This document shows positions 5,079-53,278 of a DNA stretch of 53,586 nucleotides, piece by piece. Made by a program: the position numbers and the translations under genes. The notes under the pieces are model-generated. The model made no database searches. It saw nothing but the letters and a program-made list of their open reading frames with translations, and had not been told where the DNA came from. Position 1 is the stretch's first letter. Every line of letters starts with the position of its first letter. The stretch is from a virus. The DNA lies in IMG/VR virus record IMGVR_UViG_3300044994_000102, positions 1-53,586 of that record; one strand, given 5' to 3'.

Positions 5079-5129
5079 AATCCTCCATCATCGGCGCAAC
5101 CACGCCGCTGTCTGTTCGTCGCACGGTGG

Positions 5130-5151: not shown

Positions 5152-5256
5152 AGCCTTACGGCCCGCCTCTTTGCCTGTGACCGGGAGAGGCGGAAACCGG
5201 CCTATTACCAACGCATCCGGAGTGGGATGCCCTGAGGCACCCAACCGAAATCTCTG

Positions 5257-5694: not shown

Positions 5695-5780
5695 CTGCCT
5701 CCTAATCCGCTTTAGTTTTCTTGTTCTCGCGAACTATCCGCGAGTGAGAAGTGCAGCCACAATCGCCCTCCTTCTCCCCC

Positions 5781-6223: not shown

Positions 6224-6232
6224 CGCTCTACC

Positions 6233-7191: not shown

Positions 7192-7214
7192 CCCGCTTCC
7201 TTCTTCGTGCTCAT
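7188..7214 (-). other. Eight-codon micro-ORF coupling two genes
   Basis: MSTKKEAG-stop. Its ATG overlaps the preceding stop as TAATG and its stop overlaps the next start as ATGA. It repeats the MSTK start of neighbouring genes, so it is probably a remnant of a deleted gene that still works as a translational coupler. Confidence 0.3.
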
Positions 7215-7555: not shown

Positions 7556-7564
7556 CGCTCTACC

Positions 7565-7909
7565 TCACTCGCCGCTGCCGCTGCCGTAGCCGCTGCCGCT
7601 GCCGTCGCCGCTGCCGTCGCCCCTGCCGTCGCCGCTGCCGCTGCCGCTGCCGTCGCCGTCGCCCCTGCCGTCGCCACTGCCGCTGCCGTCGCCCCTGCCG
7701 TCGCCGCTGCCGCCGCCGCTGCCGTTGCCGCTGCCGTAGCCGTTGCCGCTGTCGCCGCCGCTGCCGCTGCCGACGCCGTTGCCGCCGCCGTCGCCGCTGC
7801 CGACGCCGCTGCTCCTGCCCCTGCCGCTGCCCCTGCCCCTGCCGTCGCCGCTGCCGTTGCCGCTGCCGCCGCCGTTGCCGCTGCCGCTGCCGTCGCCTAC
7901 TTCACCCAT
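7565..7909 (-). CDS. Gly-Ser/Asp/Asn low-complexity protein or DUF6948 tail
   Basis: A 114-residue reading made almost only of Gly-Ser, Gly-Asp, Gly-Asn and Gly-Arg dipeptides encoded by a GCC/GCT-type tract. The ATG lies 13 bases before the stop of the DUF6948 gene in another frame. Gly-rich tails occur on some DUF6948 proteins, so this may be a C-terminal extension reached by frameshifting rather than an independent gene. It ends with the same SGSGE-stop sequence as the small gene at 6233. The tract should be prone to slippage, which may vary its length between relatives. Confidence 0.45.
   Translation of the reverse strand: MGEVGDGSGSGNGGGSGNGSGDGRGRGSGRGRSSGVGSGDGGGNGVGSGSGGDSGNGYGSGNGSGGGSGDGRGDGSGSGDGRGDGDGSGSGSGDGRGDGSGDGSGSGYGSGSGE
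7568..7893. repeat. GCCGCT/GCCGTC hexanucleotide simple repeat
   Basis: About 325 bases of GCC followed by GCT, GTC, GTT, GTA or CCT, with one position per hexamer fixed as Gly on the minus strand. A shorter tract of the same kind lies at 6236-6311. The copies keep the coding frame and share identical flanks on the 3' side of the gene, which points to duplication and slippage. Confidence 0.85.
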
Positions 7910-8211
7910 TCTGGTACCCCCTCAATGCTGATTCGCGCCCTGTCGCTGCAATCAAGGATCTCAAACGCATCCAGCAACTCAACACGCGAGACCGGCGCGG
8001 GGAATTTACAGTTGGACGGATCGCTCGTCCCAGTAGTAGCGAGCTGTGAGAGTGATGCCGCCCCGCTCCAAAACCAGAGCCGCCGAGCATTCCGAAGTAC
8101 GACTTCTCTCTCTTTGCGTGACACAAACACCCCGGCGAACACCCCTGCCAGATGGCTTCTCACAATCACGTATCGCTCTTCATCCTTCCCTTGTTTTGTC
8201 TCTGTTGACAT
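7897..8211 (-). CDS. DUF6948-like phage protein
   Basis: The 104-residue protein shows the conserved pattern of DUF6948: ERYVIVRSHLAGVFAGVFVS, EVVLRNARRLWFWSGAASLS, a CKFP segment and an EILDCSDRARISIEGVPEW end. The family is common in phages and has no assigned function. AGGGGA precedes the ATG. The stop lies 13 bases inside the Gly-rich reading at 7909, suggesting coupling or a frameshift fusion. Confidence 0.7.
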   Translation of the reverse strand: MSTETKQGKDEERYVIVRSHLAGVFAGVFVSRKEREVVLRNARRLWFWSGAASLSQLATTGTSDPSNCKFPAPVSRVELLDAFEILDCSDRARISIEGVPEWVK

Positions 8212-8257
8212 AAAATCCCCTTACTTTTCTACTTCAGATCCTCGATGCCCGCCCCCT

Positions 8258-8503
8258 TTATGGTCGCAGCGCCCGGCGAACGGCCTCCTCGAGCTCGCTC
8301 GTCTCCCGCCCGATGATCCGGACGATGGCTTGAACGGCCTCCTCGCGTCGGCACATGCCGGTTCGGACCTTATCGATTACCCCCATCACCTCCTGCTCGA
8401 GTGTCACCTGCTTCGGTGGCAGGTCAACGAACGCCCGCAGGTTCAGGCCATCACCTGCAAAGTTGGCGGGGATGTGTTTCGTGTCACCGTTCAGTTTCGA
8501 CAT
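8258..8503 (-). CDS. Hypothetical 81-residue protein
   Basis: N-terminal strand region (KHIPANFAGDGLNLRAFVDLPPKQVTLEQE) followed by two helices (VMGVIDKVRTGMCRREEAVQAIVRIIGRE, SELEEAVRRALRP). GGAGGCCC precedes the ATG. It lies between the secreted protein gene and the DUF6948 gene on the same strand. Function unknown. Confidence 0.6.
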   Translation of the reverse strand: MSKLNGDTKHIPANFAGDGLNLRAFVDLPPKQVTLEQEVMGVIDKVRTGMCRREEAVQAIVRIIGRETSELEEAVRRALRP

Positions 8504-8516
8504 GGGCCTCCGTCAG

Positions 8517-8792
8517 TTACCTTCTCCAGACGTTCCACACCCGGCACGAGAACGGCTTCCGGAGCGCGTCCCGGCCGTAGATGTACCGACCACGGCACAT
8601 CACTCCGCCAGACCAGTACAGGACCGCCGGCGTGTTCCACGAGCATGACACGCGAGCGTTGTGGGTCCGGCCGTAGAGCACGCCGTTCCTGTGGTTGATG
8701 CGGAAATAACCCGGGACGACGTAGGCGCACTGGGCCTCGGCGGTGGCGACGGTGGTCAGGGCTGCGATGGTGGCGATGAGGATGCGCTTCAT
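8517..8792 (-). CDS. Small secreted hypothetical protein
   Basis: A 91-residue protein with a signal peptide: basic KR, hydrophobic LIATIAALTTVATA, then an AEAQ cleavage-like site near residue 20. The mature part has four Cys and many aromatic residues (CAYVVPGYFRINHRN, VSCSWNT, GGVMCRGRYIYG, FSCRVWNVWRR), as expected for a disulfide-bonded exported protein. The ATG overlaps the upstream stop as ATGA. Export suggests a role at the envelope, perhaps superinfection exclusion, but this is only inference. Confidence 0.6.
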   Translation of the reverse strand: MKRILIATIAALTTVATAEAQCAYVVPGYFRINHRNGVLYGRTHNARVSCSWNTPAVLYWSGGVMCRGRYIYGRDALRKPFSCRVWNVWRR

Positions 8793-9055
8793 GACCGCAC
8801 CCGCTCCGCCCGTAGCCGCTCGATCTCATCGACCAGGACGATCGACCAGTCCCGGCTGTGCTCGTGCCGGGCCTTGACATCGGCCATGACCAGCTCAAGC
8901 ACCTGCTCAGGCGTCTCGCCTTTGTTTCGCAGGGTGGCGAGCTCGGCGGCGGCATTCGTCCGGCACGCGCCGGGGGTCTGCCGTATCCGCTCGACCTCCT
9001 CGACTAGTTTCGCGGCATCGTCGACCGTGCCATCGAACTTACTCCTCGGTTCCAT
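8789..9055 (-). CDS. Hypothetical helical protein, first of the small-gene cassette
   Basis: An 88-residue helical protein (DDAAKLVEEVERIRQTPGAC, AAAELATLRNKGETPEQVLELVMADVKA, DWSIVLVDEIERLRAERVRS) with a strong AGGAGGAGA site. It is followed by an ATGA overlap to the next gene. Upstream lies a 178-base leader with several short hairpins (for example TCTCGG/CCGAGA) and the TTGAC palindrome at 9224-9245. Function unknown. Confidence 0.6.
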   Translation of the reverse strand: MEPRSKFDGTVDDAAKLVEEVERIRQTPGACRTNAAAELATLRNKGETPEQVLELVMADVKARHEHSRDWSIVLVDEIERLRAERVRS

Positions 9056-9223
9056 TCTCCTCCTGATGCGTTCACACAGTTAATCGCGGCGGCCGTGGTG
9101 GTTCGTCCGGCCCGGCGTCCACTCCACGCCGTCACTGAGTCCCTCTCGGTTGTCCGAGACCCTCTGCCCGTCCGCCCCCGACATCGGGGAACGGCCGCCA
9201 CGATCGAAGGGTGCCACAAGTCT

Positions 9224-9245
9224 CAAAGGCGCGTCAACGCCTTTG
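9224..9245 (-). promoter_or_regulatory. TTGAC palindrome, copy 2
   Basis: CAAAGGCG, CGTCAA, CGCCTTTG: a perfect palindrome whose minus strand reads TTGACG, then GTGGCACC 14 bases later, a second box shared with copies 4 and 5. It overlaps the stop of the gene at 9234-9413 and lies about 170 bases before the gene at 9055. Likely operator or promoter for the leftward cassette. Confidence 0.6.
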
Positions 9246-9413
9246 GCGAATCTCTTTGGCTGTGCAGCCGGAACACCACACCAGCCGCAGGAACAGCTCA
9301 GCGGCGAAGCACCGCCCGGTCAGGCCGAGGGCGGCGATCCACGCCTGGCCCTCGGTCGGCCCTGTTCCCCGAATCTCACTCGTCCTGTTGTCCACTATCG
9401 CCCAGCAGTTCAT
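9234..9413 (-). CDS. Short hypothetical protein (59 residues)
   Basis: Starts MNCWAIVDNRTSEIRGTG and continues EGQAWIAALGLTGRCF with a Cys-rich C-terminus (VWCSGCTAKEIRQRR). GGAG lies four bases before the ATG, which sits inside the end of the upstream small gene. The Trp-Ala-Ile-Val start and the GP-EGQAW segment look like small phage proteins that process a single beta-sheet domain, but I cannot name it. The last codons are part of the regulatory palindrome. Confidence 0.5.
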   Translation of the reverse strand: MNCWAIVDNRTSEIRGTGPTEGQAWIAALGLTGRCFAAELFLRLVWCSGCTAKEIRQRR

Positions 9414-9483
9414 CGTTCTCCGGCCTCCTCACCCACAAAACTCCCGCCACGAAACCCAGCAGGAATCCGATCCATACCGCCAT
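9376..9483 (-). CDS. 35-residue single-span membrane peptide
   Basis: MAVWIGFLLGFVAGVLWV forms one hydrophobic span with a Gly-x3-Gly face, followed by a charged cytoplasmic tail (RRPENDELLGDSGQQDE). GGAGGGG lies eight bases before the ATG. It overlaps the next gene. Such tiny membrane peptides are common in early phage operons; function unknown. Confidence 0.45.
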   Translation of the reverse strand: MAVWIGFLLGFVAGVLWVRRPENDELLGDSGQQDE

Positions 9484-9537
9484 CACCCTAACCCCTCCAT
9501 CGAGCGTCCGGCCTCATGCCTCAACACACCCTGAATC

Positions 9538-9559
9538 CAAAGACATTGACTCATCTTTG
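9538..9559 (+). promoter_or_regulatory. TTGAC palindrome, copy 5, before the regulator
   Basis: CAAAGACA, TTGACT, CATCTTTG, with GTGTCACC 14 bases after the hexamer. The -35-like hexamer is only 31 bases before the ATG at 9582, so the transcript would be leaderless or nearly so. This fits autoregulation of the HTH gene. Confidence 0.55.
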
Positions 9560-9581
9560 CCTCGCGTGTCACCATAAATCT

Positions 9582-9893
9582 ATGCCCTACAACGAGATAA
9601 AGCGGCCCAAGAGTGCGAACCACATCAAGAGACTGTTTCAGTTGATCGCCGAACGGCACGGACGCCGCCACGAACTCGTACTCTGCGAACGCATCGACAT
9701 CGGGCCGCGGAGCGTGTGGGGCTGGACCCGGCGCGGTATCCCGGTGGGCTACTGGCCGCTGGTCGCCGAACTGGCGGGGGTGACGGTGGAGGAGGTGGCG
9801 GCGGGGCATCGGTGGTACGTTCGGGACCACGAGAGCCATCCATTCCGGCTTCGTCGTGGCAGAGCGGCCGGAGCTCCAGGAGCCGCTTCCTGA
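9582..9893 (+). CDS. Cro/YdaS-like helix-turn-helix regulator
   Basis: A 103-residue protein. Residues about 30-75 (LCERIDIGPRSVWGWTRRGIPVGYWPLVAELAG in pieces, then VTVEEV) match the YdaS/Cro type HTH, where a recognition helix is followed by W-x-RRGIP and a GVT-x-E-E turn. The frame is open from 9516, but ATG at 9582 is chosen because the upstream part contains the palindromic operator. No ribosome-binding site is visible, consistent with a leaderless message. It is divergent from the small-gene cassette and is the best candidate for the protein that binds the TTGAC palindromes. Confidence 0.6.
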   Translation: MPYNEIKRPKSANHIKRLFQLIAERHGRRHELVLCERIDIGPRSVWGWTRRGIPVGYWPLVAELAGVTVEEVAAGHRWYVRDHESHPFRLRRGRAAGAPGAAS

Positions 9894-10155
9894 TCGCCTC
9901 CAAGTCCCAGCCGAGCGACTCGGCCACTTCCTGAGCCGAAAACCCTTTTGGCGCCGAGAAATCATCGAGGAACAGATACGCCGTGGCGCTCCTTCGGTCC
10001 TCCCGCTTCACGTTCACCGTTCCGCCGCGCCCACCACCAACGAAGTCAGCCCGGCTAAGAAAGTCACTCACGGCTCTGGAAAAGACCGCGGCCTGAAGAT
10101 TGTGCTCCGGGATACGGTTCGGCTCCTCCTCGCGGTCAATGGTGAAGTCGATCAT
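9625..10155 (-). CDS. Conserved phage protein with possible winged-helix segment
   Basis: The first about 100 residues look genuine: EHNLQAAVFSRAVSDFLSRADF, then RSATAYLFLDD, GFSAQEVAESLGWDLEAIRKRLLEL. This pattern (helix, A-x-LFL strand, helix-turn-helix ending in IRKRL) recurs in the gene at 16710-17042. The rest, Pro- and Arg-rich, runs antisense to the HTH gene and may not be real. GGAGG precedes the ATG, which follows the nuclease stop by two bases. Function unknown; a DNA-binding role is possible. Confidence 0.5.
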   Translation of the reverse strand: MIDFTIDREEEPNRIPEHNLQAAVFSRAVSDFLSRADFVGGGRGGTVNVKREDRRSATAYLFLDDFSAPKGFSAQEVAESLGWDLEAIRKRLLELRPLCHDEAGMDGSRGPERTTDAPPPPPPPSPPPVRRPAASSPPGYRAGSSPTRSAARCRCVRRVRVRGGVRAVRRSTETVS

Positions 10156-10157
10156 GC

Positions 10158-10982
10158 TTAAGTCGCCTCCGCAAACTCTTCCGCGGCCTTCTTCGCCCGT
10201 GCCTTGTCCTGCTCCGGGCACACCTGTCGGGCCGGGCAGAACCAGCACCACCCGCCCGCCTTCAGCTCACGAGGCTCCAACCCCATCATCTGCCTCACCG
10301 CCTTCTCGGCTCCGGCCTTGAGCTTCGCCTCCCACTCGTCGAGCTCCCACGCGGCGTACCACCACTCGGAGAAGAACTGCGGCAGGCGGGGCTGCACCAC
10401 CACCACCTTCACCTGCTCGAGCTTCTTCTTGCTGTTCCGTTTCAGGGCCGCTGCGTAGTACGCGAGCTGTACCGAGGTCTCCGGGTTGACCCGCTTCCCC
10501 TTGCCGTACTTCAAGTCCACCACCATCCCCGTCGCGGCGCCCTTCCTGACACCGGAGCACACAAAATCGAGGGTGCCGAACATCCCGAGATCTTGGTCCA
10601 AGACAAGCCGGTGCTCGATCCTGACCGCCGGCGGGGCGTCGAACGCGGCCACCTGATCCAGGCACACGTTCACGTAGGTCATGGCGTAGTCCACCATGCT
10701 CCACATCCGGCCGTCGCCCGTCGGGAACTCCGTGTCGGCGTACTCCGGGCGGAGGGTGTCAACCCACGCCTCGTCCAGCCGCCGCTCGTTACTTTCCCAG
10801 TGCCGGAGGATGCGCTCGGCCAGCTCGTGGCACCGCGTGCCCTCCAGGGCGTACGGCGCCGGCGGCTCCTCTGGTAGCCCCTGGGAAAGCCCGATGCTGC
10901 CGGGGCAGTTGAGCCACCGCTCGGCCCCGGAGGCAGAGCAGACGGCGTGAGCACGCCCCTTGTGGTCGGGGGCGGCGGTCAT
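10158..10982 (-). CDS. DUF2800 family PD-(D/E)XK nuclease with Cys cluster
   Basis: A 274-residue RecB/Cas4-like protein. The N-terminus SASGAERWLNCPGSIGLS and LEGTRCHELAE are typical of DUF2800. The nuclease core shows GTLDF with Asp139, then Asp156-x-Lys158 in VVDLKYGKG, and a QLAYYAAAL helix. Cys26 with Cys246, Cys249 and Cys255 could hold an iron-sulfur cluster. Such proteins act with the DUF2815 ssDNA-binding protein in phage recombination or replication, and the DUF2815 gene is two genes upstream here. The start shares ATGA with the preceding gene. Confidence 0.85.
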   Translation of the reverse strand: MTAAPDHKGRAHAVCSASGAERWLNCPGSIGLSQGLPEEPPAPYALEGTRCHELAERILRHWESNERRLDEAWVDTLRPEYADTEFPTGDGRMWSMVDYAMTYVNVCLDQVAAFDAPPAVRIEHRLVLDQDLGMFGTLDFVCSGVRKGAATGMVVDLKYGKGKRVNPETSVQLAYYAAALKRNSKKKLEQVKVVVVQPRLPQFFSEWWYAAWELDEWEAKLKAGAEKAVRQMMGLEPRELKAGGWCWFCPARQVCPEQDKARAKKAAEEFAEAT

Positions 10983-11191
10983 TGGCCGACCTTCTCATGC
11001 CCGGTGAAGGCGCGGAAGAGCCGCCACGCCTTCATCTCCATGTCGAAACCGACCCCGCGCTCGGTCTCCGAGTTGGCGAACGTCACGTTAACGGTCCACT
11101 GGCCGTCCCCGTCGAGGCGGGGCTCCTCGAACTCTGTCACCGTCTCGGCGTTCCCCCACCGCCCCGCGGCCCACGGTACGAATTTCGTCAT
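10979..11191 (-). CDS. Hypothetical 70-residue protein in recombination operon
   Basis: MTKFVPWAAGRWGNAETVTEFEEP, then a beta-hairpin-like WTVNVTFANSETERGVGFDMEM and an AWRLFRAFTGHEK end. The start at 11191 is preceded by CGGAGGGAT; a GTG four codons upstream is less likely. It is coupled to the nuclease gene by ATGA. Function unknown, but its fixed place between the ssDNA-binding protein and nuclease suggests a recombination accessory. Confidence 0.6.
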   Translation of the reverse strand: MTKFVPWAAGRWGNAETVTEFEEPRLDGDGQWTVNVTFANSETERGVGFDMEMKAWRLFRAFTGHEKVGQ

Positions 11192-11250
11192 ATCCCTCCG
11201 CACGAAAAGGGGGCGACGCCCACACTAGGCGCCACCCCCATTGTTTCTCC

Positions 11251-11814
11251 TTACAGCTCGTCCGCCGATGCCGCCGCCTCGAACGCCTCGAACTCGTCCT
11301 CGGCCTTGACCCCGCTACCGCCGAAGGGCTCGTCGTCCCGCACCTTCTGGACGTTGTTCAGGTAGGCGGTGACGCCCGTATTCCCGAGCGAGTTGTAGCT
11401 GCCGAAGATGACGGACAGCCGCCCCCAGCACCCGCCGTAAATCTCGTCCTTGTCCTCGATGGGCTTGCGGTCCGGGCCAACCACACCAGGGCGCTTCGTC
11501 GTCTTAGCGCGGATCACCCAGTGCCCCTTGTAGATGGGATCGTCCTTATCGTCGCCATCGCGAATCGTCGGGTGCGTCTGCTTGTCCTGCCCCTTCCACT
11601 TCGCCCCGAACGCCTCTTTCCCGACCCTCTCGACCGCCGCCAGCAGCGGGGAGATGTCGGTCTTCTTCGGGATGAGGAGCGTCACCTCGAACTTCCCCTC
11701 CTTGGTCTCGTCCAGGCTCTTCGCCCGCTCGAACACGCTCGGATAGCTGAACCGCCCCAGCGGGGTGATGATCCTGTCCGAGTAAACGTTGTCGTTCTTT
11801 TTTCCTTGTGCCAT
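11251..11814 (-). CDS. DUF2815 ssDNA-binding-like protein
   Basis: A 187-residue protein matching DUF2815: an N-terminal TPLGRFSYPSVFERAK segment, KFEVTLLIPKKTD, a GHWVIRAKTTKRPGVVG strand, EIYGGCWGRLSVIFGSYNS and a C-terminal acidic tail (AEDEFEAFEAAASADEL), as in SSB-type proteins that dock partners through acidic ends. It probably coats single-stranded DNA during phage replication or recombination. AAGGA precedes the ATG. It lies between the helicase and nuclease genes. Confidence 0.85.
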   Translation of the reverse strand: MAQGKKNDNVYSDRIITPLGRFSYPSVFERAKSLDETKEGKFEVTLLIPKKTDISPLLAAVERVGKEAFGAKWKGQDKQTHPTIRDGDDKDDPIYKGHWVIRAKTTKRPGVVGPDRKPIEDKDEIYGGCWGRLSVIFGSYNSLGNTGVTAYLNNVQKVRDDEPFGGSGVKAEDEFEAFEAAASADEL

Positions 11815-11883
11815 GCCGCACGTCCTTGTTGTTCGCCCTCCGACGCCGCCGGGCTCATTCCCCGCAGTCGCCGTCCGGCATCA

Positions 11884-13212
11884 TCAATCCTGTAAAACTT
11901 TCGTGATGTCCCGCTGCTTCCGCATCACGGCCCGGGTGACAGCCTCATCGAGGCTGTCCGGCACTACGAGGTAAATGGCGCGCGTGATCTCCGTCTGTGT
12001 CACGCGGAACACCCGCCCCTCGCCCTGCTCGTTGTCGGAGGGCACCCATGACGCCTCGACGAACACGACCGTGCTCGAGCGTGTGAGCGTGACCCCCGTG
12101 TTCGCCGCCGTCAGGGACGCCAGGAACACCTGGGCCTCCCCGTTCTGAAAGGCGTCCACCGCCACTTGCCGCTCCGCGGGCGCCGTCTCACCCGTGATGC
12201 CCACGACGGTGATGCCTCGCTCGGTGAACCCGTCACGCATCTCCCGAATCACGTCCCGGTGGTGGGCGAACACCACCGCGCTCCCGGCCTCTTCGAGCAG
12301 GTCGCACACGTACTCCACGGCCGGCCCGGCCTTGAGCAGCCCGAGCTTCCGGCGTGCGGTGGAGATGGCGTCACTCTGGAGCGGGACGCCCGACTCGACG
12401 GCCTGAACTACGCGGTCGACCATTTCGGCGACGTCAGCAAAATGGTCCTGACACTCCGCGACCCGGAGCGCGGGCACCTCGAGCGGCATCGTCTGCCGCA
12501 CCAGCGGCGGCAGTTGCCCGAGAACCTCTCCCTTCTGCCGCCGCACCATGAACCGCTCCCGCGCCTTGCGCCCGAGGTCTTCAAGATTCTTCGAGCGGGG
12601 ATAGGTGACGCCCCACGGCGTCTCCTCCGGGACGCAGTACGCGTTGCGGAACGGCTCCCAGCGGCCGAACAGGTCCGGGGCGAGCCGCGAGAACAGCGTC
12701 CACGCCTCGGCCGCCCGGCCGTTCGGCAGCGGCGTGCCGGTGATGGCGAGGCGGTACGTCGCGCGGCCCCATAGCACCACCATGCAGACGCGCGCCCGCT
12801 GGGAACTCGGGCTCTTGAGGTAGTGCGCCTCGTCGAAGATGAGCCCGTCCCACTCCTCGCGCCGTAGGCGATCGAGAACGGCGGGGCGGCACGCGAGGTC
12901 GTAACTCACGACGACCACCTCGGCGGCGTCCACGAGTGGCACGTCCCGGCCGCTCCGCATGACGGCGGGCCGGTACTGCCCGCCGCTCCACCGCAGCATC
13001 TCACGCCGCCAGTTCTCTTTAAGGCTCGACGGGCAGACCACGAGGATGCGCCGCAGCCCGAGGCCCTGAAACGTCAGTACGGCTTGCGGCGTCTTTCCCG
13101 CGCCGGGCGGATCGGCCAACAGGGCGGCACGGTTCGATCGCATCAGACGAGTGACAGCCTCGATGCCGTCACGCTGGTACTGGAAGAGTGAGTCCGAAAC
13201 GCCCGCCGTCAT
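11884..13212 (-). CDS. SNF2-type DEAD/DEAH helicase
   Basis: A 442-residue superfamily 2 ATPase. The Q-like FQYQRDGI opens the protein, Walker A is DPPGAGKT at 34-41, motif II is DEAH at 127-130 in LIFDEAHYLKS, and motif III is ITGTPLPN. The C-terminal helicase lobe has FLASLTAANTGVTLTRSSTVV and the arginine-finger motif QGEGRVFRVTQ. It is a compact SNF2/HARP-like translocase common in phage replication modules. It is the first gene of the minus-strand replication operon and divergent from the RHH gene. Confidence 0.9.
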   Translation of the reverse strand: MTAGVSDSLFQYQRDGIEAVTRLMRSNRAALLADPPGAGKTPQAVLTFQGLGLRRILVVCPSSLKENWRREMLRWSGGQYRPAVMRSGRDVPLVDAAEVVVVSYDLACRPAVLDRLRREEWDGLIFDEAHYLKSPSSQRARVCMVVLWGRATYRLAITGTPLPNGRAAEAWTLFSRLAPDLFGRWEPFRNAYCVPEETPWGVTYPRSKNLEDLGRKARERFMVRRQKGEVLGQLPPLVRQTMPLEVPALRVAECQDHFADVAEMVDRVVQAVESGVPLQSDAISTARRKLGLLKAGPAVEYVCDLLEEAGSAVVFAHHRDVIREMRDGFTERGITVVGITGETAPAERQVAVDAFQNGEAQVFLASLTAANTGVTLTRSSTVVFVEASWVPSDNEQGEGRVFRVTQTEITRAIYLVVPDSLDEAVTRAVMRKQRDITKVLQD

Positions 13213-13280
13213 GTTACTCGTTATCTGTTGCGTCCGAGCATGACGTGTAGCATGCTGCGGGTCTCAGGGTCAACGAGTGA
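13213..13280 (-). promoter_or_regulatory. Divergent intergenic region with possible helicase promoter
   Basis: On the minus strand TTGACC (13273-13268) and CTACAC (13250-13245) are 17 bases apart, a weak promoter pair for the helicase operon. The region also holds an AGCATG/CATGCT inverted repeat around 13238-13256 and the palindrome TGATTGCAATCA at the start of the next gene, possible operator sites. Confidence 0.25.
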
Positions 13281-13475
13281 ATGATTGCAATCATGAGAAA
13301 GACAGAGACGAATAAAAAGTCATCCGCATTCCTTAAGCTCTACTCGGTCCGGTTGGACACCGCCGCCGCCAAGAAGGTTGCGCGGCTAAGAAAAGGGCGA
13401 GCGTCTCAGAACCAGGTGTTCGTCGACGCCATTGAGGCACTGTACCGCGAAGCCATCAAGCCCACCTCGAACTAA
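13281..13475 (+). CDS. Ribbon-helix-helix-like small regulator
   Basis: A 64-residue basic protein: SAFLKLYSVRLDTAAAKKVARLRKGRASQNQVFVDAIEALYREAI in pieces, where a short strand (YSVRL) is followed by two helices as in RHH/CopG proteins. The start is either 13281 or the ATG at 13293. The first codons span the palindrome TGATTGCAATCA, which could be its own operator. It precedes the primase gene by 24 bases and probably regulates replication functions. Confidence 0.55.
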   Translation: MIAIMRKTETNKKSSAFLKLYSVRLDTAAAKKVARLRKGRASQNQVFVDAIEALYREAIKPTSN

Positions 13476-13499
13476 CCGTCTGCCGCACCCCGGAGGACT

Positions 13500-15845
13500 A
13501 TGGCGTCGAGCACGACGGAGAGGGATCCCGTTCTCGAAACGGCCCTCGCGTACATCGCCGAAGGCATCAACTGCACGCCGGTGTATGGCCCCAAGGCGCG
13601 GGTAACGGATGCCGGGAAACGCCCTCGGCTCGACGCCTGGCAGAACTTGCGGCTCACGTCCGACGAATACCGGAAGGCCCACCGCAAGGGGGATAACGTC
13701 GGGGTCGTCACCGGCCGAACCTCAGGGCTGATCTGCGTTGACTGCGACAAAAAGGACGACCCCGCCCGGTGCGGCGTTCTCTGGTTCATCGAGAACGAGG
13801 CGCGGCTCGGGCAGTTCGTTCGCGAGGACACGCCGCGAGGTGGCATCCACCTCTGGTACCGCTACCCAGCGGGGCGGGACTTCGTTCCCTCCAAGGGGAA
13901 ACTATTCCCGGGCGTCGACTTCATGGCGGACGGCGGGCGGCAGGTGGTGACATGGCCGTCCGGACACAAAAACGGGTCGTACGTCTTTAGACAGGGGTTG
14001 TCCCTGATTGATGTCGCCGATGAGGCCGGGGAGATCCCAGAATGGATACTCGAAGAGGCAGACCGCGCACACCGGGTGAGTCTCGCGACCGCCCCGAAGG
14101 CGGCCCCTGGGCCCGTCGACGAAAGCCTCATCGACATCCCGCAAGAGATCGACCGAGCCCGCGAACGCATGAAGACCTACCCGGCGGCGATAGAGGGTGA
14201 AGGCGGCGACTTTCGCACCGTCCAGGCCGCGTGGGAGTGCAAGAAGTATAACCTGTCGCCAGAGACCACCCTCCAGCTCTTGGCCGAAATTTACAACCCC
14301 AGGTGCGAACCGCCGTGGGCTTTGAAAGACCTCGCGGTGAAAGTGCGAAACGCCTACAAGTACGGTAAGGAGCCATCGGGCAAGGAGACAGCGGCGAACG
14401 ACTTCCCGCCCGACGACCCGGCCGCCCTGGCCGCGAGCGTGGACGACGTCCGCCCGCCGGGCGCCTACCAGCCGCGCCTGCCCATCGCCTCCGCTCGCCA
14501 CTTCATCGAGCGGAACAGAGGCCGCGTGCTCTGCCAGCAGGGGCAGATGTACGTCTACCGCGACCGAAACGCCCACTGGGACATGGTCGACGACGAGCTG
14601 TTCGAGGCCACCATCCTCCGCGACATCAACGCCGAGGACGCGGACGCCTGCAAGAAGCTCAAAATGGGCCAGCTCCGGGACATCGCCCGCGCCGTCAAGC
14701 GAGAGCTCCAGGCGGCCGCCGCCGACGAGATCGTGCCAGACACCTGGCTCGACGGCCGCGCGGGGCAGTTCGTCCCGCTCAGGAACGGCATCCTCGACGT
14801 CGGCACCGGCGAGTTACTCCCGCACGACCCGACGTGGTTTTCGTTCACCACCCTCCCGTTCGACTACGCCCCCGCGGCCCAGTGCCCGGCCTTTCTCGAC
14901 TTCCTCGCATCCGTCTGGGACGGGGACGATGACCTCGTCCGGGCCATGCGGCTGTGGATGGGGTACGTGCTCACCTCGAGCATGAGCGCCCAGAAGTTCG
15001 CCGTCCTCATCGGCGAGAGCCGGGCTGGGAAGTCCACCCTCGCCCGCGTCATCGAGGGGCTCGTCGGGAAGCGGAACACCGTCGCCTGCTCGCTCATGCT
15101 GTTCGGCGGCGACTTCGGCCTGGAGCCGGTGCTCGGCAAGCGGCTCGCCATCTTCAACGACGCACAGCGGCTCCACGGCACCGCCGGGGACATCGCCACC
15201 GAGCGGATCATCTCCATCGTGGGCAACGACCCGCAGCCGGTGAACCGGAAGAACCGGGGGATCCTGACGGTCCACCTGCCCGCCAAGATCATGCTCGTCT
15301 GCAACGAGATCCCGCACTTCGTGAACCGCCGCGACGCGCTGACCAACCGGATGCTCGTGTTCCCGTTTCGGAAGAGCTTCAAGGGCAAGGAGGACCTGAC
15401 CCTGCACGACCGGCTCATGGCCGAGCTGCCCGGAATCCTCAACTGGGCACTCGACGGCGCACGGGCCATCATGGGCGGGGAGAAGCTGCACCAGGCGGCC
15501 GCAGGCGAGGCCGCGGTCCAGGAGATCGCCGAGATCCTCGACAGCATCCAGGGGTTCCTGTCCGACGCCGTCGAGTTCACCAACGACACCGCCGCGAGGG
15601 ACTCGTTCGTCACGTCGACCGACCTCTACGACGCCTACAAGCGGTGGTGCCGGGACGCCAACATGGGCACCCACGGGATGAAGCGGTTCTTTCAGGAGTT
15701 CAAGAGCAAGGCCCGGGACCGCGTCACCGCCGCCCGTTCCCCCGACCGGAAGCGCGTCAAGGGGTACTACGGCTTGCGGCTCGTGACCGGCTCCGTGGCC
15801 GACTTCCCGCCCAGCTACCACGAAAATGACGACATGGAGCTCTGA
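13500..15845 (+). CDS. Primase-polymerase / D5-family replicative helicase
   Basis: A 781-residue two-domain replication protein. The N-terminus is a Prim-Pol domain: ETALAYIAEGINCTPVYGPK in pieces, VGVVTGRTSGLICVDCD with metal-binding Asp81 and Asp83, and GGIHLWYRYP. The C-terminal half is a D5/P4-type superfamily 3 helicase with GESRAGKST Walker A near 505-513, a LGKRLAIFNDA Walker B region and a MLVCNEIPHF sensor motif. It would prime and unwind DNA at the phage origin. Directly downstream is a cluster of iteron-like repeats, which supports origin binding by this protein or a partner. Confidence 0.92.
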   Translation: MASSTTERDPVLETALAYIAEGINCTPVYGPKARVTDAGKRPRLDAWQNLRLTSDEYRKAHRKGDNVGVVTGRTSGLICVDCDKKDDPARCGVLWFIENEARLGQFVREDTPRGGIHLWYRYPAGRDFVPSKGKLFPGVDFMADGGRQVVTWPSGHKNGSYVFRQGLSLIDVADEAGEIPEWILEEADRAHRVSLATAPKAAPGPVDESLIDIPQEIDRARERMKTYPAAIEGEGGDFRTVQAAWECKKYNLSPETTLQLLAEIYNPRCEPPWALKDLAVKVRNAYKYGKEPSGKETAANDFPPDDPAALAASVDDVRPPGAYQPRLPIASARHFIERNRGRVLCQQGQMYVYRDRNAHWDMVDDELFEATILRDINAEDADACKKLKMGQLRDIARAVKRELQAAAADEIVPDTWLDGRAGQFVPLRNGILDVGTGELLPHDPTWFSFTTLPFDYAPAAQCPAFLDFLASVWDGDDDLVRAMRLWMGYVLTSSMSAQKFAVLIGESRAGKSTLARVIEGLVGKRNTVACSLMLFGGDFGLEPVLGKRLAIFNDAQRLHGTAGDIATERIISIVGNDPQPVNRKNRGILTVHLPAKIMLVCNEIPHFVNRRDALTNRMLVFPFRKSFKGKEDLTLHDRLMAELPGILNWALDGARAIMGGEKLHQAAAGEAAVQEIAEILDSIQGFLSDAVEFTNDTAARDSFVTSTDLYDAYKRWCRDANMGTHGMKRFFQEFKSKARDRVTAARSPDRKRVKGYYGLRLVTGSVADFPPSYHENDDMEL

Positions 15846-15852
15846 CCCGGAG

Positions 15853-16212
15853 CGGACCCATCGGACCCATCAGCGGACCCGTGCGGACCTTTGGTTTCCG
15901 CACGGGTCCGCTGCTTTTCGCTAATAGTTCCACACACCTACGGTAGTTGCGGACCTTTGCGGACCCATTTTCGGAATAATTGTTCCGGCGAGTTTTTCCC
16001 GGTTACTCCTCTCTCCCCCCATACCCCCCTCTCTATCTATACCTGTTTGAGTGTCTCACGCGGAGTAGTCAGAAAAAGGGTCCGCAAAGGTCCGCAAACG
16101 AGGTAAACACCACAAACCATAGGAGAATTCGTGCGGACCTTTCAAGGCTCGAAAGGTCCGCAATGGGTCCGCAAAGGTCCGCAATGGGTCCGCAAATGTC
16201 CGCAAAGGTCCG
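15853..16212. repeat. Iteron-like GGTCCGC repeats, probable replication origin
   Basis: About 16 copies of the core GGTCCG (or CGGACC on the other strand) fill the 420-base gap after the primase gene. Forward cores start at 15905, 16079, 16089, 16155, 16166, 16176, 16187 and 16207, with a variant near 16197. Reverse cores start at 15853, 15862, 15874, 15884, 15950, 15960 and 16134. The 16155-16207 run is spaced 10-11 bases, one helical turn. Between the two groups is a pyrimidine-rich stretch (about 15993-16045), a possible unwinding element. No gene is seen in this gap. Confidence 0.7.
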
Positions 16213-16264
16213 CTGCGGGTGGTAGGTAGTGGCCCCCTGGCTGGCAGTGCTACCCTCGGGGCAG

Positions 16265-16675
16265 ATGGCACCCAAGCGCCGCCGCAAGCCCTCGATGCCC
16301 CCGACCCACGAGGGCTCCGAGCACTGGCACCAGAGCACCTTCATCTCCCTCATCCGCCAGGTCCCGCACGTCGCCGGGCGGCGCACCTACGCCACCCCGA
16401 ACGGATTCCTTCGCACGAAGGCCATGCGCATCCGGGCGTGGCAGGAGGGCATGGTCTCCGGCGTCTGGGACGTGCACGTGCCCGTCCCATCTCAAAAACA
16501 TCCGGGGATGTGGATCGAGTTCAAGGCCGGGAACAACACCCTCTCGAAGGAACAGAGGGAGTTCGGGCGGGACATGGAGGCCCTCGGGCACAAAACCGTC
16601 GTGGCCTACTCGTGGCGCGAGGCGTTCGACGCGTGGTGCGCGTACCTCGGCATTCGGGTCGAGCTGTCCGCCTGA
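16265..16675 (+). CDS. VRR-NUC domain nuclease
   Basis: A 136-residue single-domain nuclease. The order of motifs fits VRR-NUC: HEGSEHWHQSTFISLIRQ helix with the first Glu, then GMVSGVWDVHVPVP, with the catalytic Asp, and WIEFKAGNNTLSKEQREFGRDME with the E-x-K pair, ending with a VVAYSWREAFDAW helix. Such small phage VRR-NUCs act on branched or nicked DNA in replication and recombination. The frame opens at GTG 16229; I prefer ATG 16265, which begins a basic APKRRRKP tail. Confidence 0.85.
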   Translation: MAPKRRRKPSMPPTHEGSEHWHQSTFISLIRQVPHVAGRRTYATPNGFLRTKAMRIRAWQEGMVSGVWDVHVPVPSQKHPGMWIEFKAGNNTLSKEQREFGRDMEALGHKTVVAYSWREAFDAWCAYLGIRVELSA

Positions 16676-16709
16676 ACACACAATTTCCCCTGGTGCACCG
16701 ATCCCCGCC

Positions 16710-48073: not shown

Positions 48074-48718
48074 TTATATGATGTCCCCGCCGAAGTAGGC
48101 GTAGATCGCGTCCACCCGCTCCGGGTCGTACGTCACGCAGAGCCGCCAGCCGTCGCTCGCCACCGCCACCTTCCAGTCCACCACCATCATCCTCGCAGGG
48201 CCGTTCCACTTACGCGCCTTCAGGTCGGCGACCGGGAACCAGTACTCGCCCCACTTGGGTCCGAGCCTCACGGACTTCGCCGCGAGTACCGTATGGCTCT
48301 CTTCGACCGGCACCGCGTCCAGCATGGTCTCGACCGACCACTCGTCCTCTTGAGTGTCGGGAGGGTCCACCAAACAGATGTGGTAGACCGCCCGCCCGTT
48401 AGGCAGCTTTTTCAGCATCTCCCGGATCGCCAACGCTTGCGAGCGTGCCAGCGTCGGGTCGAGTAGCGGCCGGCCCTCGTACTTCTTGATCGCAGTGTCG
48501 AGCTCGAACGCTTCGGTGTAGAGCTTTGCCAGTTCCGGCTTATCGACGAGCGCCTCGAACAGCCGCGCGGCCTCCTTGACGTTCGATCCGCCTTCGCCGT
48601 TCTCCAGCTTGCTCACGTAGCTGGTGCTCTTCTTCCCGACCGAGTGGGCCAGCTCGATCCCGGTCATCCCCCGGTCTTGCCGCAGCTTCCTGACCAGTCG
48701 TCCCAAGTCGCCAGTCAT
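48074..48718 (-). CDS. Xre-family repressor with C-terminal sensor-like domain
   Basis: A 214-residue protein. Residues 5-60 are an HTH_3 domain (LGRLVRKLRQDRGMTGIELAHSV, YVSKLENGEGGSNVKEAARLFEAL). The remainder is a non-peptidase domain with YHICLVDPPDTQ, WFPVADLKARKWNGPARMMVVDWKVAV in pieces. It is divergent from the mobilisation genes at 49063 and probably represses them or a lysogeny switch. The 344-base region upstream holds inverted ACTCCCG(G)AATT half-sites. Confidence 0.75.
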   Translation of the reverse strand: MTGDLGRLVRKLRQDRGMTGIELAHSVGKKSTSYVSKLENGEGGSNVKEAARLFEALVDKPELAKLYTEAFELDTAIKKYEGRPLLDPTLARSQALAIREMLKKLPNGRAVYHICLVDPPDTQEDEWSVETMLDAVPVEESHTVLAAKSVRLGPKWGEYWFPVADLKARKWNGPARMMVVDWKVAVASDGWRLCVTYDPERVDAIYAYFGGDII

Positions 48719-49062
48719 GACTCCCCTTGATGCGAACTGCTGAACTCCCGAATTTTAAGAAATTTCGCACTTCCCGCCAGTGCACCCGAGGTTAAAATCA
48801 TTCCGTCCGGTCTCCTGAATTCCGGGAGTCCCGGACTTTAGATTCCACGATTGGCGGTTAGCCCGCCGGAGGTGACGAGACACCTCAAGCCTTTCGTCCG
48901 CATTCGCCAGCATCCAGCCATCTGCCCACCAAGCAACGCAACAGAGCCCCTCGAGGGCTCCCGTCCGCCGTGCGCGCTGACGGCCGCTCTTTGACAACTC
49001 GGCATTTTGTTTCATTCCCCATTCCCCCATCGGCGGCGTGACCGCCGGAAAGGAGGCCATCC
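48719..49062. promoter_or_regulatory. Divergent control region between repressor and mobilisation genes
   Basis: No gene is seen. ACTCCCGAATT (48744-48754) and its inverted partner AATTCCGGGAGT (48818-48829) look like half-sites for the Xre protein. On the plus strand TTGACA at 48991-48996 is a possible -35 for the relaxase operon, without a clear -10. AGGAGG lies just before the ATG at 49063. Confidence 0.4.
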
Positions 49063-49542
49063 ATGGCCCAGAAGAAGGCCGAATCAGTGCCGAAGGTCAG
49101 CGTCTCGTTCAAGGTCCACAAGAAAACCAAGGATCTTTACAAGGCGAAATGCAACAGCATCCAGTCCAAGGACTTCAAGGGCAGCGAGTCGAGCGTCGGT
49201 GAGGTACTCGTCGAGGGTTTCGTTTCCGGACTGCTCGTCGTCGACGATCAGGGAAAGCTCGTCGTGCCCGGGCCGGCACAGTCGAAACCCGCTCCACCGC
49301 CCCCACCACTCCCACCGCCGAGGCCCGAGCCGGAGCTCGAGCCGCTCCCGGAGATCCTCCCGCCGATGCCGGCCGAGGACTACCAGGGCCTTAACGTCGT
49401 CGCGTACTTCTACCGCAACCGCCACCCGGGTGAGACGTACGAGCAGTTCTTGGCCGCATTCGAGTCCGAGCGGCACCCCGACGAGTCCATACAGAGCTGG
49501 GCTTACCGCACCCGCAAGGAAGAGGAAGGGGGTGCCGCGTGA
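49063..49542 (+). CDS. Relaxosome-accessory-like protein with Pro-rich linker
   Basis: A 159-residue protein. An N-terminal small domain (VSVSFKVHKKTKDLYKAKCNSI, SVGEVLVEGFVSGLLVV) resembles RHH-type DNA-binding partners of relaxases. A proline-rich linker (PPPPPLPPPRPEPELEPLPE) connects it to a helical C-terminus (YEQFLAAFESERHPDESIQSWAYR). AGGAGG precedes the ATG. It overlaps the relaxase-like gene by four bases. Confidence 0.6.
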   Translation: MAQKKAESVPKVSVSFKVHKKTKDLYKAKCNSIQSKDFKGSESSVGEVLVEGFVSGLLVVDDQGKLVVPGPAQSKPAPPPPPLPPPRPEPELEPLPEILPPMPAEDYQGLNVVAYFYRNRHPGETYEQFLAAFESERHPDESIQSWAYRTRKEEEGGAA

Positions 49543-51155
49543 GCCGCCCCGGCAAAACGCCAGAGACGTACCCGCAGGAGGAACGGTTTCAGGACGAAGC
49601 CAGACAGTGCGGGGGGATGGTGCCGCTACCCGGGATGGTGAAGCAGGGGATAGACCCGAACAAGCCCGAGGACCTGAAGAATTTCTGCGAGCACCGCGAC
49701 CCGGACGGCACCCGCCCGATGGCGTGGCACGCGAACGCCGCGACGTACCTTTACTCGCTCCTCTACACAGCCGCTCCGTCGATCAACGGGTGGCTCAAGA
49801 CGCAGCCGAAGGAGGTGTTCGACCGGTTTGTGAAGGAGGTGTTCAAGCCGGCCGTCATGAACGCCGTGCTCGTGATGAACGAGGCGTGCGTCGTTCGCCG
49901 GCGGGAGAACGGCCAGCACATCAAGGAGAAGGCCGCCCTGGTCGGGTTCATCGCCGCCCATCTCACGGCGGCGGACGGCAACACGAGCCTGCACGCCCAC
50001 GTCCCGCTCTGGCGGTACGGGACGACGCAGGACGGGCGGGCGCTGTCCTTCCACGACGGGCGGTTCCTGTTCGGGGAGGCGTTCAAGAAGTCGGTCGAGG
50101 TGTTCCACCAGTCGCTCGCGGTTGGCCTGTTCCAGCACTTCGGCATCAAGGCCGAGGTCAAGGACGGGAAGTGCGAAATCCCGGGCGTGCCGAAGGAGGT
50201 GCTGGAGACCCTCGGCACCCGCAGCAAGGCGGCGCGGGCGTGGCTGGAGAAGCAAGGTATCTCCGAGACCGACCAGTCGATGCAGATCGCGGTGTGGCAG
50301 ACCCGGCCGAAGGGCGTCCCGCACTTCGACCTGACCGAGCGGTTCGCCCACTGGAACCAGGAGGCCCGTCAAGCGCTCGGGGCGAAGGCCGACCAGTACA
50401 TGCGACCCGCGACCGGCACCGGCGCGGCAACGACCGAGCGGCCCACCCAGTCGGAGACGAGGCGATCGTCCGAGTCGAACCAGACCGCCGTGCACTCGAG
50501 CACGGCCGGTCCCGAGCAGTCGACCGCCCAGGCCGACCAGCGGCAGAAGGGCGGAGAGAAGACGGAGCAGCAGCAGTCCAGGTCGAGCCAACAACAGCAG
50601 CACGAGAGCGAAGGGTTCCGCTACTTCCGCCAGACGCCCGGGCGGAAGCAGTCGCCGACCGGGTCGCTCATGTCCCGGGCCTTGAAAGACCTGATCGGCG
50701 AGACCGGGACGGAGCTCGCGAAGACGGCCATGCTCGTGGCACGGAAAGCGTTCGTGCCGCGGGACGACGTGATCCAGGTGAAGAACCTCGCAAGGGCCAA
50801 TGAGGACGGCCGCACGCCGACCAAGGGTGAGGTGTTCCGAGCGGTTCGAAACGAGTTGCGACGGAAAAACGTGGACGACTGGAACGCGATCGCCACGCTC
50901 GGGAGGCTGACGGGGATCGCCTTGAAAGTCTACCTGAAGGCGCGAAAGCCGAAGGTCTCGTACCCGCCCGGGACCGTGATGGTGGTGAGTCGGAAGGCCC
51001 AGCGGACCGCCACCCCCGAGCAGAAGAAGCAGTTCGCGAGGCTCGCCGCGAAACGCGGCTGGGCCGTCCGGTACGCGAAGCTCGAACAAGACCAGTCGCA
51101 GCAACAGGGCCAGCAGCAAGGCCAGAAGCAGCAGAAGCAGCAACAGTCCCCCTGA
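49539..51155 (+). CDS. TrwC/TraI-like relaxase-domain protein
   Basis: A 538-residue protein whose first about 215 residues resemble the MOBF relaxase core: a helix rich in aromatic residues (YLYSLLYTAAPSINGW), LVGFIAAHLTA, metal-binding His152 and His154 in SLHAHVPLWRYG, then DGRALSFHDGRFLF and VFHQSLAVGLFQHFGI. The usual N-terminal double-Tyr nicking motif is not evident, so catalytic function is uncertain. A Gln/Ser-rich middle and a helical basic C-terminus follow. With the neighbouring coupling ATPase it forms a mobilisation-like module. Confidence 0.65.
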   Translation: MSRPGKTPETYPQEERFQDEARQCGGMVPLPGMVKQGIDPNKPEDLKNFCEHRDPDGTRPMAWHANAATYLYSLLYTAAPSINGWLKTQPKEVFDRFVKEVFKPAVMNAVLVMNEACVVRRRENGQHIKEKAALVGFIAAHLTAADGNTSLHAHVPLWRYGTTQDGRALSFHDGRFLFGEAFKKSVEVFHQSLAVGLFQHFGIKAEVKDGKCEIPGVPKEVLETLGTRSKAARAWLEKQGISETDQSMQIAVWQTRPKGVPHFDLTERFAHWNQEARQALGAKADQYMRPATGTGAATTERPTQSETRRSSESNQTAVHSSTAGPEQSTAQADQRQKGGEKTEQQQSRSSQQQQHESEGFRYFRQTPGRKQSPTGSLMSRALKDLIGETGTELAKTAMLVARKAFVPRDDVIQVKNLARANEDGRTPTKGEVFRAVRNELRRKNVDDWNAIATLGRLTGIALKVYLKARKPKVSYPPGTVMVVSRKAQRTATPEQKKQFARLAAKRGWAVRYAKLEQDQSQQQGQQQGQKQQKQQQSP

Positions 51156-51180
51156 CCCTTTTTCGGAAAGGACCGATCGC

Positions 51181-51573
51181 ATGTTCAAGTTCCTCCTGTG
51201 GCTCTACCGCGTCACGCTCGGCGGCTTCCTGGCCGGGGTCGCGTTCGTCTGGCGGGAGTGGGGCTGGCCCACGGTCGCCGGCTGGCTCGTGGTGGCCCTA
51301 ATGCTGGGCGTCCACGGCTACCTCTGGCTCCTCCTCGTCGCCGCTCTCGGCCTGAACCAACTCGTCGCCCTGATGGCGTTCGTGACTGCCGCGGTGAGCA
51401 TCACCGGCGTCGCCGCCACCAACACCGTCCCGTGGGTCGACACCGCCATCCGGTACGCCTGCGACGTGATCACGAAGGGCTACGCCGACCGCTGCCACAC
51501 GGCGACGTATCCCGCCGACCCCCGCCACGCCCTGGCGCCAAAGCGCACCGGGGCAAGCGCCGACGAAAAGTGA
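51181..51573 (+). CDS. Membrane protein of the mobilisation module
   Basis: A 130-residue protein with three to four hydrophobic spans (LLWLYRVTLGGFLAGVAFV, VAGWLVVALMLGVHGYLWLLLVAALGL in pieces, LVALMAFVTAAVSITGVAA) and a hydrophilic end. It lies between the relaxase-like and coupling-ATPase genes, so it may anchor the ATPase, which has no strong membrane span of its own. GGAAAGGA precedes the ATG. Confidence 0.6.
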   Translation: MFKFLLWLYRVTLGGFLAGVAFVWREWGWPTVAGWLVVALMLGVHGYLWLLLVAALGLNQLVALMAFVTAAVSITGVAATNTVPWVDTAIRYACDVITKGYADRCHTATYPADPRHALAPKRTGASADEK

Positions 51574-51580
51574 TCCCCCA

Positions 51581-51607
51581 GGCACGGCAGGGCGTTCCTG
51601 CCGTGCC
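51581..51607 (+). other. Intercistronic hairpin
   Basis: GGCACGGCAGG and CCTGCCGTGCC form an 11-bp perfect stem with a five-base loop between the membrane protein and ATPase genes. No T-run; it may set the ratio of the two products. Confidence 0.5.
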
Positions 51608-51644
51608 GCTCCGTTCCCGCAACCCTGATACACGAGGTGGCCGC

Positions 51645-53072
51645 ATGAAAGAGTTCCTGAAAATCATGTTGATGGTTTTGACAGGGGAGTTCCCGGAAGC
51701 CGCCACCCCGCCGCCGCCCCGCCGCAAGAACGGCCCGAAGATCCCACTGGCCGACATGCGAGACCCCGAGGAGCTGTTCAACGGCTGCGTCATCGCCGCC
51801 ATGAAGGGGGCCGGGAAGACGAACCTGATCAAGAAGTTGGTCAATAGTGTGATCGACCTCGGCCGCCCGGTGTACCTGATCGACACCGGGGACAAGTGGG
51901 CCGAGCACGTCCGAAGGGTGCGGCCGAAGACGCTCGTCCGGCGGGTCAGCCCTCACACGGTCGGTGGCCTGAAAATCCACTGGGCCAAGACCGTCAACAC
52001 CCCGGCCCGCATCCAGGCGTTCACCGGGAAGATCGTCGGGAACGAGAAGAGCGAGTCGAAAAACCCGTACTTCCCGACGAACGCCCAGCTCGTGATGATG
52101 GCGGCGATCGAGATGCTCATCATCTTCCTGGGCGACAAGTGGACGCTCCGGGACTTCATCATCCTCGCCACCAACCGCAAGCTGTTCGTCGCCCTGCTCG
52201 ACCACCCGAAGGTCAAGGGCCGGGTCAGAGACCCCCAGGACCAGTTCGCCCACAACGACAGCGCCAGGGACGTGATGGGGACCGTCGTCAGCCACCTCCT
52301 CCCCCTCATGGTGTACGCCGCCCTCGAGGAGCACGCCCCGGCCAAGGTCGGCCTGTTCGACGCGATCGACGAGGGCGGGGTCACGATCTTCGAGTGGAGC
52401 GACAACTTCGCCGAGGCGAACTCGAAAATGCTCTCTCTGGCGGCCGAGCTGGTGATGGACGAGCTCCTGTCCCGGCAGGCGGAGAACCTGGTCCTCTGGT
52501 GCCTGGACGAGATCCGGAGCCTGGCCCAGATCGACGCCATCGCGAACGTCGCCACCCGCGGGCGGCGCAGCGGCATCGGGTTCGTCTGGAGCATGCACAT
52601 CATCGAGGGATTGCAGGACCGGTACACGAAGCTCCGGGCCATGGAACTCGCCGACCTGATGGGCATCAAGATCTTCCTTAACCTGGACGGCAACGCGACC
52701 CTCGCCTGGGCGGCCGACTCGCTGGGCAAGTGCCAGCACGTCGTCGAGGTCTGGAAAGACGGCCTCGACGGGAAGGCCGGCCACTGGGAGCGGTCCGTGC
52801 GGGAGCTGCACCGCGTCCCGCCGATCGAACTGCAAATCCTCCCCTACGCCGACCCGGTCGCGGACAAGGTGTGCGGGTACGTGAAGGACAGGTTCGGCGT
52901 CAGCTACTTCGACGCCAAGTTCCTGGCCGACTGCCCGATGCTCACCGACCCGGGGCCGACCCTTCAGCCACAGGACTGCCAGCGGCTTAAGCGCCTCACC
53001 CGTGACGACATGGCCAGGTGGGGCGTCGGCGTCCTCACCAAAGAGATCAAGGAAGCGCTGGACCTGTCATGA
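51645..53072 (+). CDS. VirD4/TraD-like coupling ATPase
   Basis: A 475-residue P-loop ATPase of the HerA/T4CP kind. Walker A is AMKGAGKTN (52-60), Walker B is LVLWCLDE near 282-289, followed by IDAIANVATRGRRSGIGFVWSMH (sensor/arginine region, in pieces) and LADLMGIKIFLNLDG. Coupling ATPases bring relaxase-DNA complexes to a type IV secretion channel. It lacks obvious N-terminal membrane spans, unlike typical T4CPs. GAGGTGG precedes the ATG. No mating-pair genes are seen, so only mobilisation is implied. Confidence 0.75.
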   Translation: MKEFLKIMLMVLTGEFPEAATPPPPRRKNGPKIPLADMRDPEELFNGCVIAAMKGAGKTNLIKKLVNSVIDLGRPVYLIDTGDKWAEHVRRVRPKTLVRRVSPHTVGGLKIHWAKTVNTPARIQAFTGKIVGNEKSESKNPYFPTNAQLVMMAAIEMLIIFLGDKWTLRDFIILATNRKLFVALLDHPKVKGRVRDPQDQFAHNDSARDVMGTVVSHLLPLMVYAALEEHAPAKVGLFDAIDEGGVTIFEWSDNFAEANSKMLSLAAELVMDELLSRQAENLVLWCLDEIRSLAQIDAIANVATRGRRSGIGFVWSMHIIEGLQDRYTKLRAMELADLMGIKIFLNLDGNATLAWAADSLGKCQHVVEVWKDGLDGKAGHWERSVRELHRVPPIELQILPYADPVADKVCGYVKDRFGVSYFDAKFLADCPMLTDPGPTLQPQDCQRLKRLTRDDMARWGVGVLTKEIKEALDLS

Positions 53073-53278
53073 GCAAGCGCCTCATCCACGACGTGGCCAT
53101 GGCCACGACCCAAGCCGCGCTCAGCCGGTTAAGAGGGTGGTCAGGCGAGGCCGAATACCGCGAGGCTTTTCTCGCGGTGTTCCCCGCCGTCCAGGGTGGA
53201 CTGACTTACCTGATCGAGCACTACCGGCACGAACTGAAACGACTAGCGAAACCCGTCCCACCACCACCGGAGAACTGA
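53069..53278 (+). CDS. Hypothetical 69-residue protein
   Basis: A helical protein (KRLIHDVAMATTQAALSRLRGW, AEYREAFLAVFPAVQGGLTYLIEHYRHELKRLA in pieces) with a short proline-rich end. The ATG overlaps the ATPase stop as ATGA, so it is co-translated with the mobilisation module. Function unknown. Confidence 0.6.
   Translation: MSKRLIHDVAMATTQAALSRLRGWSGEAEYREAFLAVFPAVQGGLTYLIEHYRHELKRLAKPVPPPPEN

Follow-up and report, generated by a model that had tools for sequence, protein, structure and literature searches.

Our computational analysis of IMG/VR record IMGVR_UViG_3300044994_000102 (53,586 bases, GC 65%), which was analyzed in whole and is referred to below as the window, indicated that a tailed phage with a full head and tail gene set carries genes for a relative of the MobF/TrwC relaxase domain and for a TrwB/VirD4-type coupling ATPase. 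We propose that these genes form part of an IME-like mobilization module, located in the lysogeny region of a temperate phage that integrates, and that the function of the module is helper-dependent conjugative mobilization of the excised prophage, a proposal that we regard as having an even chance of being correct. The broader proposal, which we hold somewhat more tentatively, is that temperate tailed phages of one group move in two ways, as virions and by conjugation of the excised prophage via a single-Tyr, helicase-less MobF relaxase and a split coupling protein, wired into the repressor-xis-int region.

Phage genes of the window

The window encodes TerS, TerL, portal, head protease, major head protein, connector, major tail protein, a tape-measure-like protein, endolysin and primase. 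Matches to PHROGs included TerL (6e-183), portal (4e-120) and major head protein (5e-44), among others, and the gene set, which runs from TerS to the lysis genes, is siphovirus-like with an HK97-type head. The initial annotation of this DNA, made without database searches, had described relaxase-like and coupling-ATPase genes in a tailed phage, and both the protein families and the tailed-phage nature of the record were confirmed.

The type IV CRISPR module that had been annotated was also found, at positions 1021-5078 on the minus strand, and comprises csf1/cas8, cas11, csf2/cas7, csf3/cas5, a cas6 and a PAPS-reductase (CysH-like) gene; no CRISPR array was found in the two stretches searched (positions 1-1100 and 5050-6400). 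Nearby, two tandem paralogous small genes are located at 272-940 on the minus strand, in 260-nt repeat units that are 77% identical, and long GCCGCT-type tandem arrays are located at 7571-7897 and 6239-6315, whose minus-strand translation would be rich in Gly and Ser.

Organization of the module

The ORFs at 49.06-53.07 kb agreed with the initial annotation in their positions, and coding by the module ORFs was supported by GC3 periodicity. The Xre repressor noted beside the module was confirmed as an Xre-type HTH repressor gene (48074-48718, minus strand) divergent from the module, with matches to HTH_3 (3.7e-7) and to the PHROG transcriptional repressor (2.5e-5). The intergenic region between them (48719-49062) contains promoter-like sequence and inverted repeats, including one with 13-nt arms at 48815-48827 and 48829-48841, and is a candidate place for an oriT or an operator; the search for oriT found only inverted repeats, none of them assignable.

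The first gene of the module (49063-49542, plus strand) encodes a putative accessory protein of 159 aa in the position of TrwA. The protein is RHH-like by eye and had been annotated as RHH, a call that was not borne out, as the protein had no Pfam match and only its counterpart in one related phage (G004, described below) was weakly RHH (MatP_C, 0.0013). The following gene, which has a GTG start overlapping the stop of the 159-aa gene, encodes the MobF/TrwC-type relaxase-like protein of 538 aa (49539-51155, plus strand), assigned by MobF homology and predicted fold. Between this gene and the ATPase gene, as the initial annotation had stated, lies a gene for a small membrane protein of 130 aa with hydrophobic segments (51181-51573, plus strand). 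The coupling ATPase of 475 aa is encoded at 51645-53072 on the plus strand; position 51645 is the likelier start, the one at 51198 in the raw ORF list being too early. The ORF list also contains a small ORF that overlaps the ATPase stop (53069-53278, plus strand) and a second one at the contig end (53283-53507, plus strand).

The relaxase-like protein

Judged by sequence comparison, the 538-aa protein is a relative of the MobF/TrwC relaxase domain. The protein alone gave no meaningful match in Pfam or PHROGs, and its assignment came from comparisons with MobF proteins. Thirty-seven plasmid records were matched by tblastn, with E values down to 2e-5, and among the matches listed every annotated one was a mobF relaxase. 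The protein scored 56 bits against an HMM built solely from other MobF proteins, the best of 600 shuffles scoring 5.0. A profile of the relaxases from the window and the two related phage lineages had no PDB matches other than MobF relaxases, TrwC included (6e-6 to 6e-5), and profile-profile comparison with plasmid MobF proteins gave a probability of 98.6. The predicted N-terminal domain, mostly of good confidence, aligned to TrwC with a Z of 22 and an rmsd of 3.7 over 269 residues, a fold match that is not fully independent of sequence homology because the AlphaFold input alignment included MobF sequences.

The protein consists of an HUH domain (approximately residues 1-295), a low-complexity linker (residues 291-409) and a short C-terminal domain, and no helicase domain is among its parts. 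The initial annotation had described a TrwC-like protein with a His-x-His motif, in agreement with the MobF matches and with H152-x-H154, and H141 lies at TrwC spacing from this motif. The His triad is present at TrwC spacing in the window and in the related G002 protein, and the first His is Gly in G004. The N-terminal Tyr pair, which the protein had been said to lack, was indeed absent from all three phage relaxases in the alignment, but one Tyr is conserved in all three homologues (Y11, Y12 and Y12) and occupies the motif-I Tyr column of a MAFFT alignment, although the local HMM alignments stop short of it. Invariant columns among the three proteins are few, and Y11, H152 and H154 belong to them. 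It is plausible that the single Tyr serves as the nucleophile. The aligned phage relaxases lack the Asp that is conserved in the GxDLTF motif of MobF proteins, and no match to a C-terminal helicase domain was found in these proteins (435-538 aa). The earlier suggestion of an alteration was supported for the relaxase.

The coupling ATPase and the membrane protein

The VirD4/TraD-like ATPase of the initial annotation was corroborated by Pfam matches to TrwB_AAD_bind (1.3e-18) and TraG-D_C (1.4e-8) and by the presence of Walker A (GAGKT) and DE motifs. TrwB_AAD_bind was matched by the ATPases of all three lineages, and the best PDB match of a profile of the phage ATPases was TrwB (4.6e-11). An AF2 model of the ATPase had a pLDDT of 47 and was left unused. 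Hydropathy analysis found no N-terminal membrane segment in the ATPases of the three lineages, and each lineage has a gene for a separate membrane protein immediately before the ATPase gene. We infer that the small membrane protein and the soluble ATPase constitute a split coupling protein, of which the former would be the membrane part.

Conservation of the module in related phages

An IMG/VR search with TerL identified two related lineages, G002/G003 and G004, whose TerL proteins are 77-80% identical to that of the window. G002 and G003 are overlapping contigs (99.998% identical over 42.7 kb; GC 51%), and G004 is a 61.5-kb contig (GC 49.5%) with one tail gene divided between its two ends, a pattern typical of circular permutation; the GC content of the relatives is thus 49-51%, in contrast to 65% in the window. 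Both relatives encode a relaxase-like protein of 435 aa, one or two small membrane proteins and a TrwB-like ATPase of 429 or 438 aa, in the same order as in the window, and the G002 relaxase-like protein scored above the Pfam cut-off for TrwC (3.1e-19). The initial annotation had suggested looking for the module in other phages, and two further lineages were accordingly found to carry it. The gene order is kept in the three lineages despite low protein identity between them (23-27% for the relaxases and 28-30% for the ATPases), and the block of the relatives has genes common to the phages on either side of it. Both relatives also have a second, shorter copy of the major tail protein gene following the first one (8093-9295 in reverse-complemented coordinates of G002), versus one copy in the window.

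Beyond these lineages, neither the relaxase-like protein nor the ATPase, taken from the window and from G002, had a match in a protein search of 50,697 phage genomes. Single-sequence scans of IMG/VR with the relaxase, ATPase and primase of the window gave none either, and profile scans of IMG/VR returned no contigs beyond those already found. A TerL scan of genomes detected prophages at up to 47% identity, and the ATPase profile, in a search run without a positive control, had no match in 12 of the TerL-matched prophage genomes.

Integration and replication genes

In G004, the ATPase gene is directly followed by an xis-like HTH_17 gene and a tyrosine integrase gene. In G002, it is followed by a hypothetical gene, then by an HTH gene whose product is 54% identical to that of G004 over 52 residues, and then by an integrase gene. 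Integrase/excisionase genes and the relaxase module therefore occur together in both relatives, and the window, in which no integrase was found, ends approximately 500 bases past the ATPase gene, where xis and int would lie. The contig is probably truncated, with the xis and int genes of the window phage expected beyond its end, and comparison with the relatives suggests that the window phage is probably an integrative temperate siphovirus-like phage and not a plasmid.

The initial annotation had read the element as a phage-plasmid from the lack of an integrase and the presence of iterons. The former observation holds for the window itself, but the inference drawn from it is undermined by the xis and int genes that the relatives have where the window ends. 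Three 21-bp direct repeats (16152-16213) between the primase and nuclease-like genes are indeed the sole iteron-like array near the replication genes, and are possibly a replication origin, but a homologous primase/helicase block is also present in the integrative relative G004. The window encodes a ParB_N-domain protein and the plasmid-type protein DUF932, and neither a plasmid initiator nor ParA was identified in it. No terminal repeats were found in the 53.6-kb window and its ends were not joined.

Proposed mechanism and alternative explanations

The proposed module would consist of the RHH-like accessory protein, the short MobF/TrwC-type relaxase, the membrane protein and the TrwB-type ATPase, together with xis and int as found in the relatives. 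The prophage would be excised under repressor control, and the accessory protein would hold the relaxase at a putative oriT, probably near 48.7-49.1 kb, where the relaxase would nick one strand with its single Tyr and a His-bound metal. The coupling ATPase and the membrane protein would dock the DNA-bound relaxase to the type IV channel of a conjugative element residing in the same cell, since no VirB4 was found in the window or in the records of the relatives and transfer would need a helper. After transfer the DNA would recircularize and integrate, and the virion route would be retained alongside. Plasmid R388 has TrwC and TrwB as its cognate relaxase and coupling protein, and the relationship of both key phage proteins to this pair favors the proposal, as do the gene order kept across three lineages despite divergence to 23-30% identity and the invariance of Y11, H152 and H154. 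It is also favored by the xis-like HTH gene and tyrosine integrase gene downstream of the module in the relatives, an arrangement as in IMEs (PMC5704250). It is weakened by the lack of an identified oriT, by the absence of the Tyr pair, the Asp and the helicase domain, by the replacement of H141 with Gly in G004, by the position of the single Tyr outside the local HMM alignments, by the need for a helper and by the lack of an integrase in the window.

The same losses from the relaxase, including that of the first His in G004, admit a repurposed or weakened function, and the main rival explanation is that a former mobilization cassette was repurposed for element-element interference, for example at the relaxosome or coupling step of conjugative elements that reside in or enter the cell, or for DNA processing in lysogeny, with no conjugative transfer of the phage. 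The module diverges very fast relative to TerL, as genes under conflict do, and type IV CRISPR-Cas, whose genes are present in the same window, is associated with an anti-plasmid life style that would fit such a role. However, the set of relaxase, membrane protein and Walker-motif ATPase is complete and in order, beside xis and int in the relatives, and the Tyr and HxH are retained in all three homologues; we regard repurposing as rather unlikely. Complete loss of function, in which the module would be what is left of an IME that entered an ancestor long ago and has since decayed, would agree with the degenerate features of the relaxase, but is opposed by the presence, in three lineages only 23-30% identical, of intact ORFs with coding periodicity and by the retention of catalytic-type residues, and we give it little credence, slightly less than the phage-plasmid reading.

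The latter, according to which the element would be episomal in lysogeny, packaged and mobilizable, draws on the absence of an integrase from the window, the three repeats by the primase gene, and the plasmid-type DUF932 and type IV Cas genes. It is opposed by the position of xis and int in both module-bearing relatives, by the failure to identify an initiator or ParA, by the unjoined ends and by the replication block shared with G004, and we consider it improbable. A chimeric assembly, or host or plasmid DNA flanking a prophage end, might be suspected from the end of the contig soon after the module, and the initial annotation had named host chromosome next to a prophage as what would refute its reading. 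Since the block is internal to related phage genomes, its order being repeated in three further contigs of two lineages with phage-shared genes on both sides, it represents phage DNA and not host flank, chimera or chance; the chimera or host-flank idea, to which we assign a negligible probability, was rejected on the basis of this synteny.

Comparison with known systems

The helper-dependent module that we propose resembles TrwA-TrwB-TrwC of R388 in that the phage relaxase domain is homologous to TrwC and the ATPase to TrwB, their genes are adjacent, and a possible RHH accessory protein occupies the position of TrwA. It differs from R388 in being phage-borne, in having a relaxase with one Tyr and without the conserved Asp or C-terminal helicase, in the apparent splitting off of the membrane domain from the ATPase, and in that no T4SS genes were found in the phage. 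IMEs with their own coupling protein (PMC5704250, PMC5357655) similarly combine int/xis, a relaxase and a coupling protein and need a helper T4SS, whereas the phage element comprises a whole tailed phage; MobC/P/Q/V are listed as the canonical relaxase families of IMEs, and MobF is not among them (PMC5704250). P1-like phage-plasmids and the mobilizable plasmids derived from them likewise combine phage genes with a relaxase or oriT, but those with a relaxase or oriT have lost virion genes (PMC10879196, PMC12977533), while the virion set of the window is complete and its relatives are integrative.

A scan of IMG/VR with a general MobF pattern returned ten contigs only, one of which was L080 (IMG/VR 3300037852_000186, positions 1520-16684). 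In L080, the genes directly before the Mu-like head genes encode a TrwB coupling protein and a helicase-less TrwC relaxase of 322 aa, and a VirB4-like gene is present. As in the window lineages, a coupling protein and a helicase-less MobF relaxase adjoin phage genes, in this case those of the head; unlike in these lineages, TrwB is full-length, VirB4 is present and the phage is Mu-like. L080 is possibly a second, independent phage/conjugation junction, or perhaps a Mu-like prophage inside a conjugative element.

A full-text literature search, which covered few subscription papers and preprints, turned up no description of a temperate phage that combines a complete virion gene set with a relaxase and a coupling protein. 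The relaxase and coupling-protein families are known, and as far as the searched literature shows, their occurrence in a group of temperate phages with complete virion genes is undescribed.

Phages and conjugative elements are usually seen as separate routes of gene transfer. If the proposal is true, one element holds both routes, with a TrwB/TrwC-type module next to int as well as a complete virion, and the exit of a prophage via the mating channel of another element, without lysis, would become testable.
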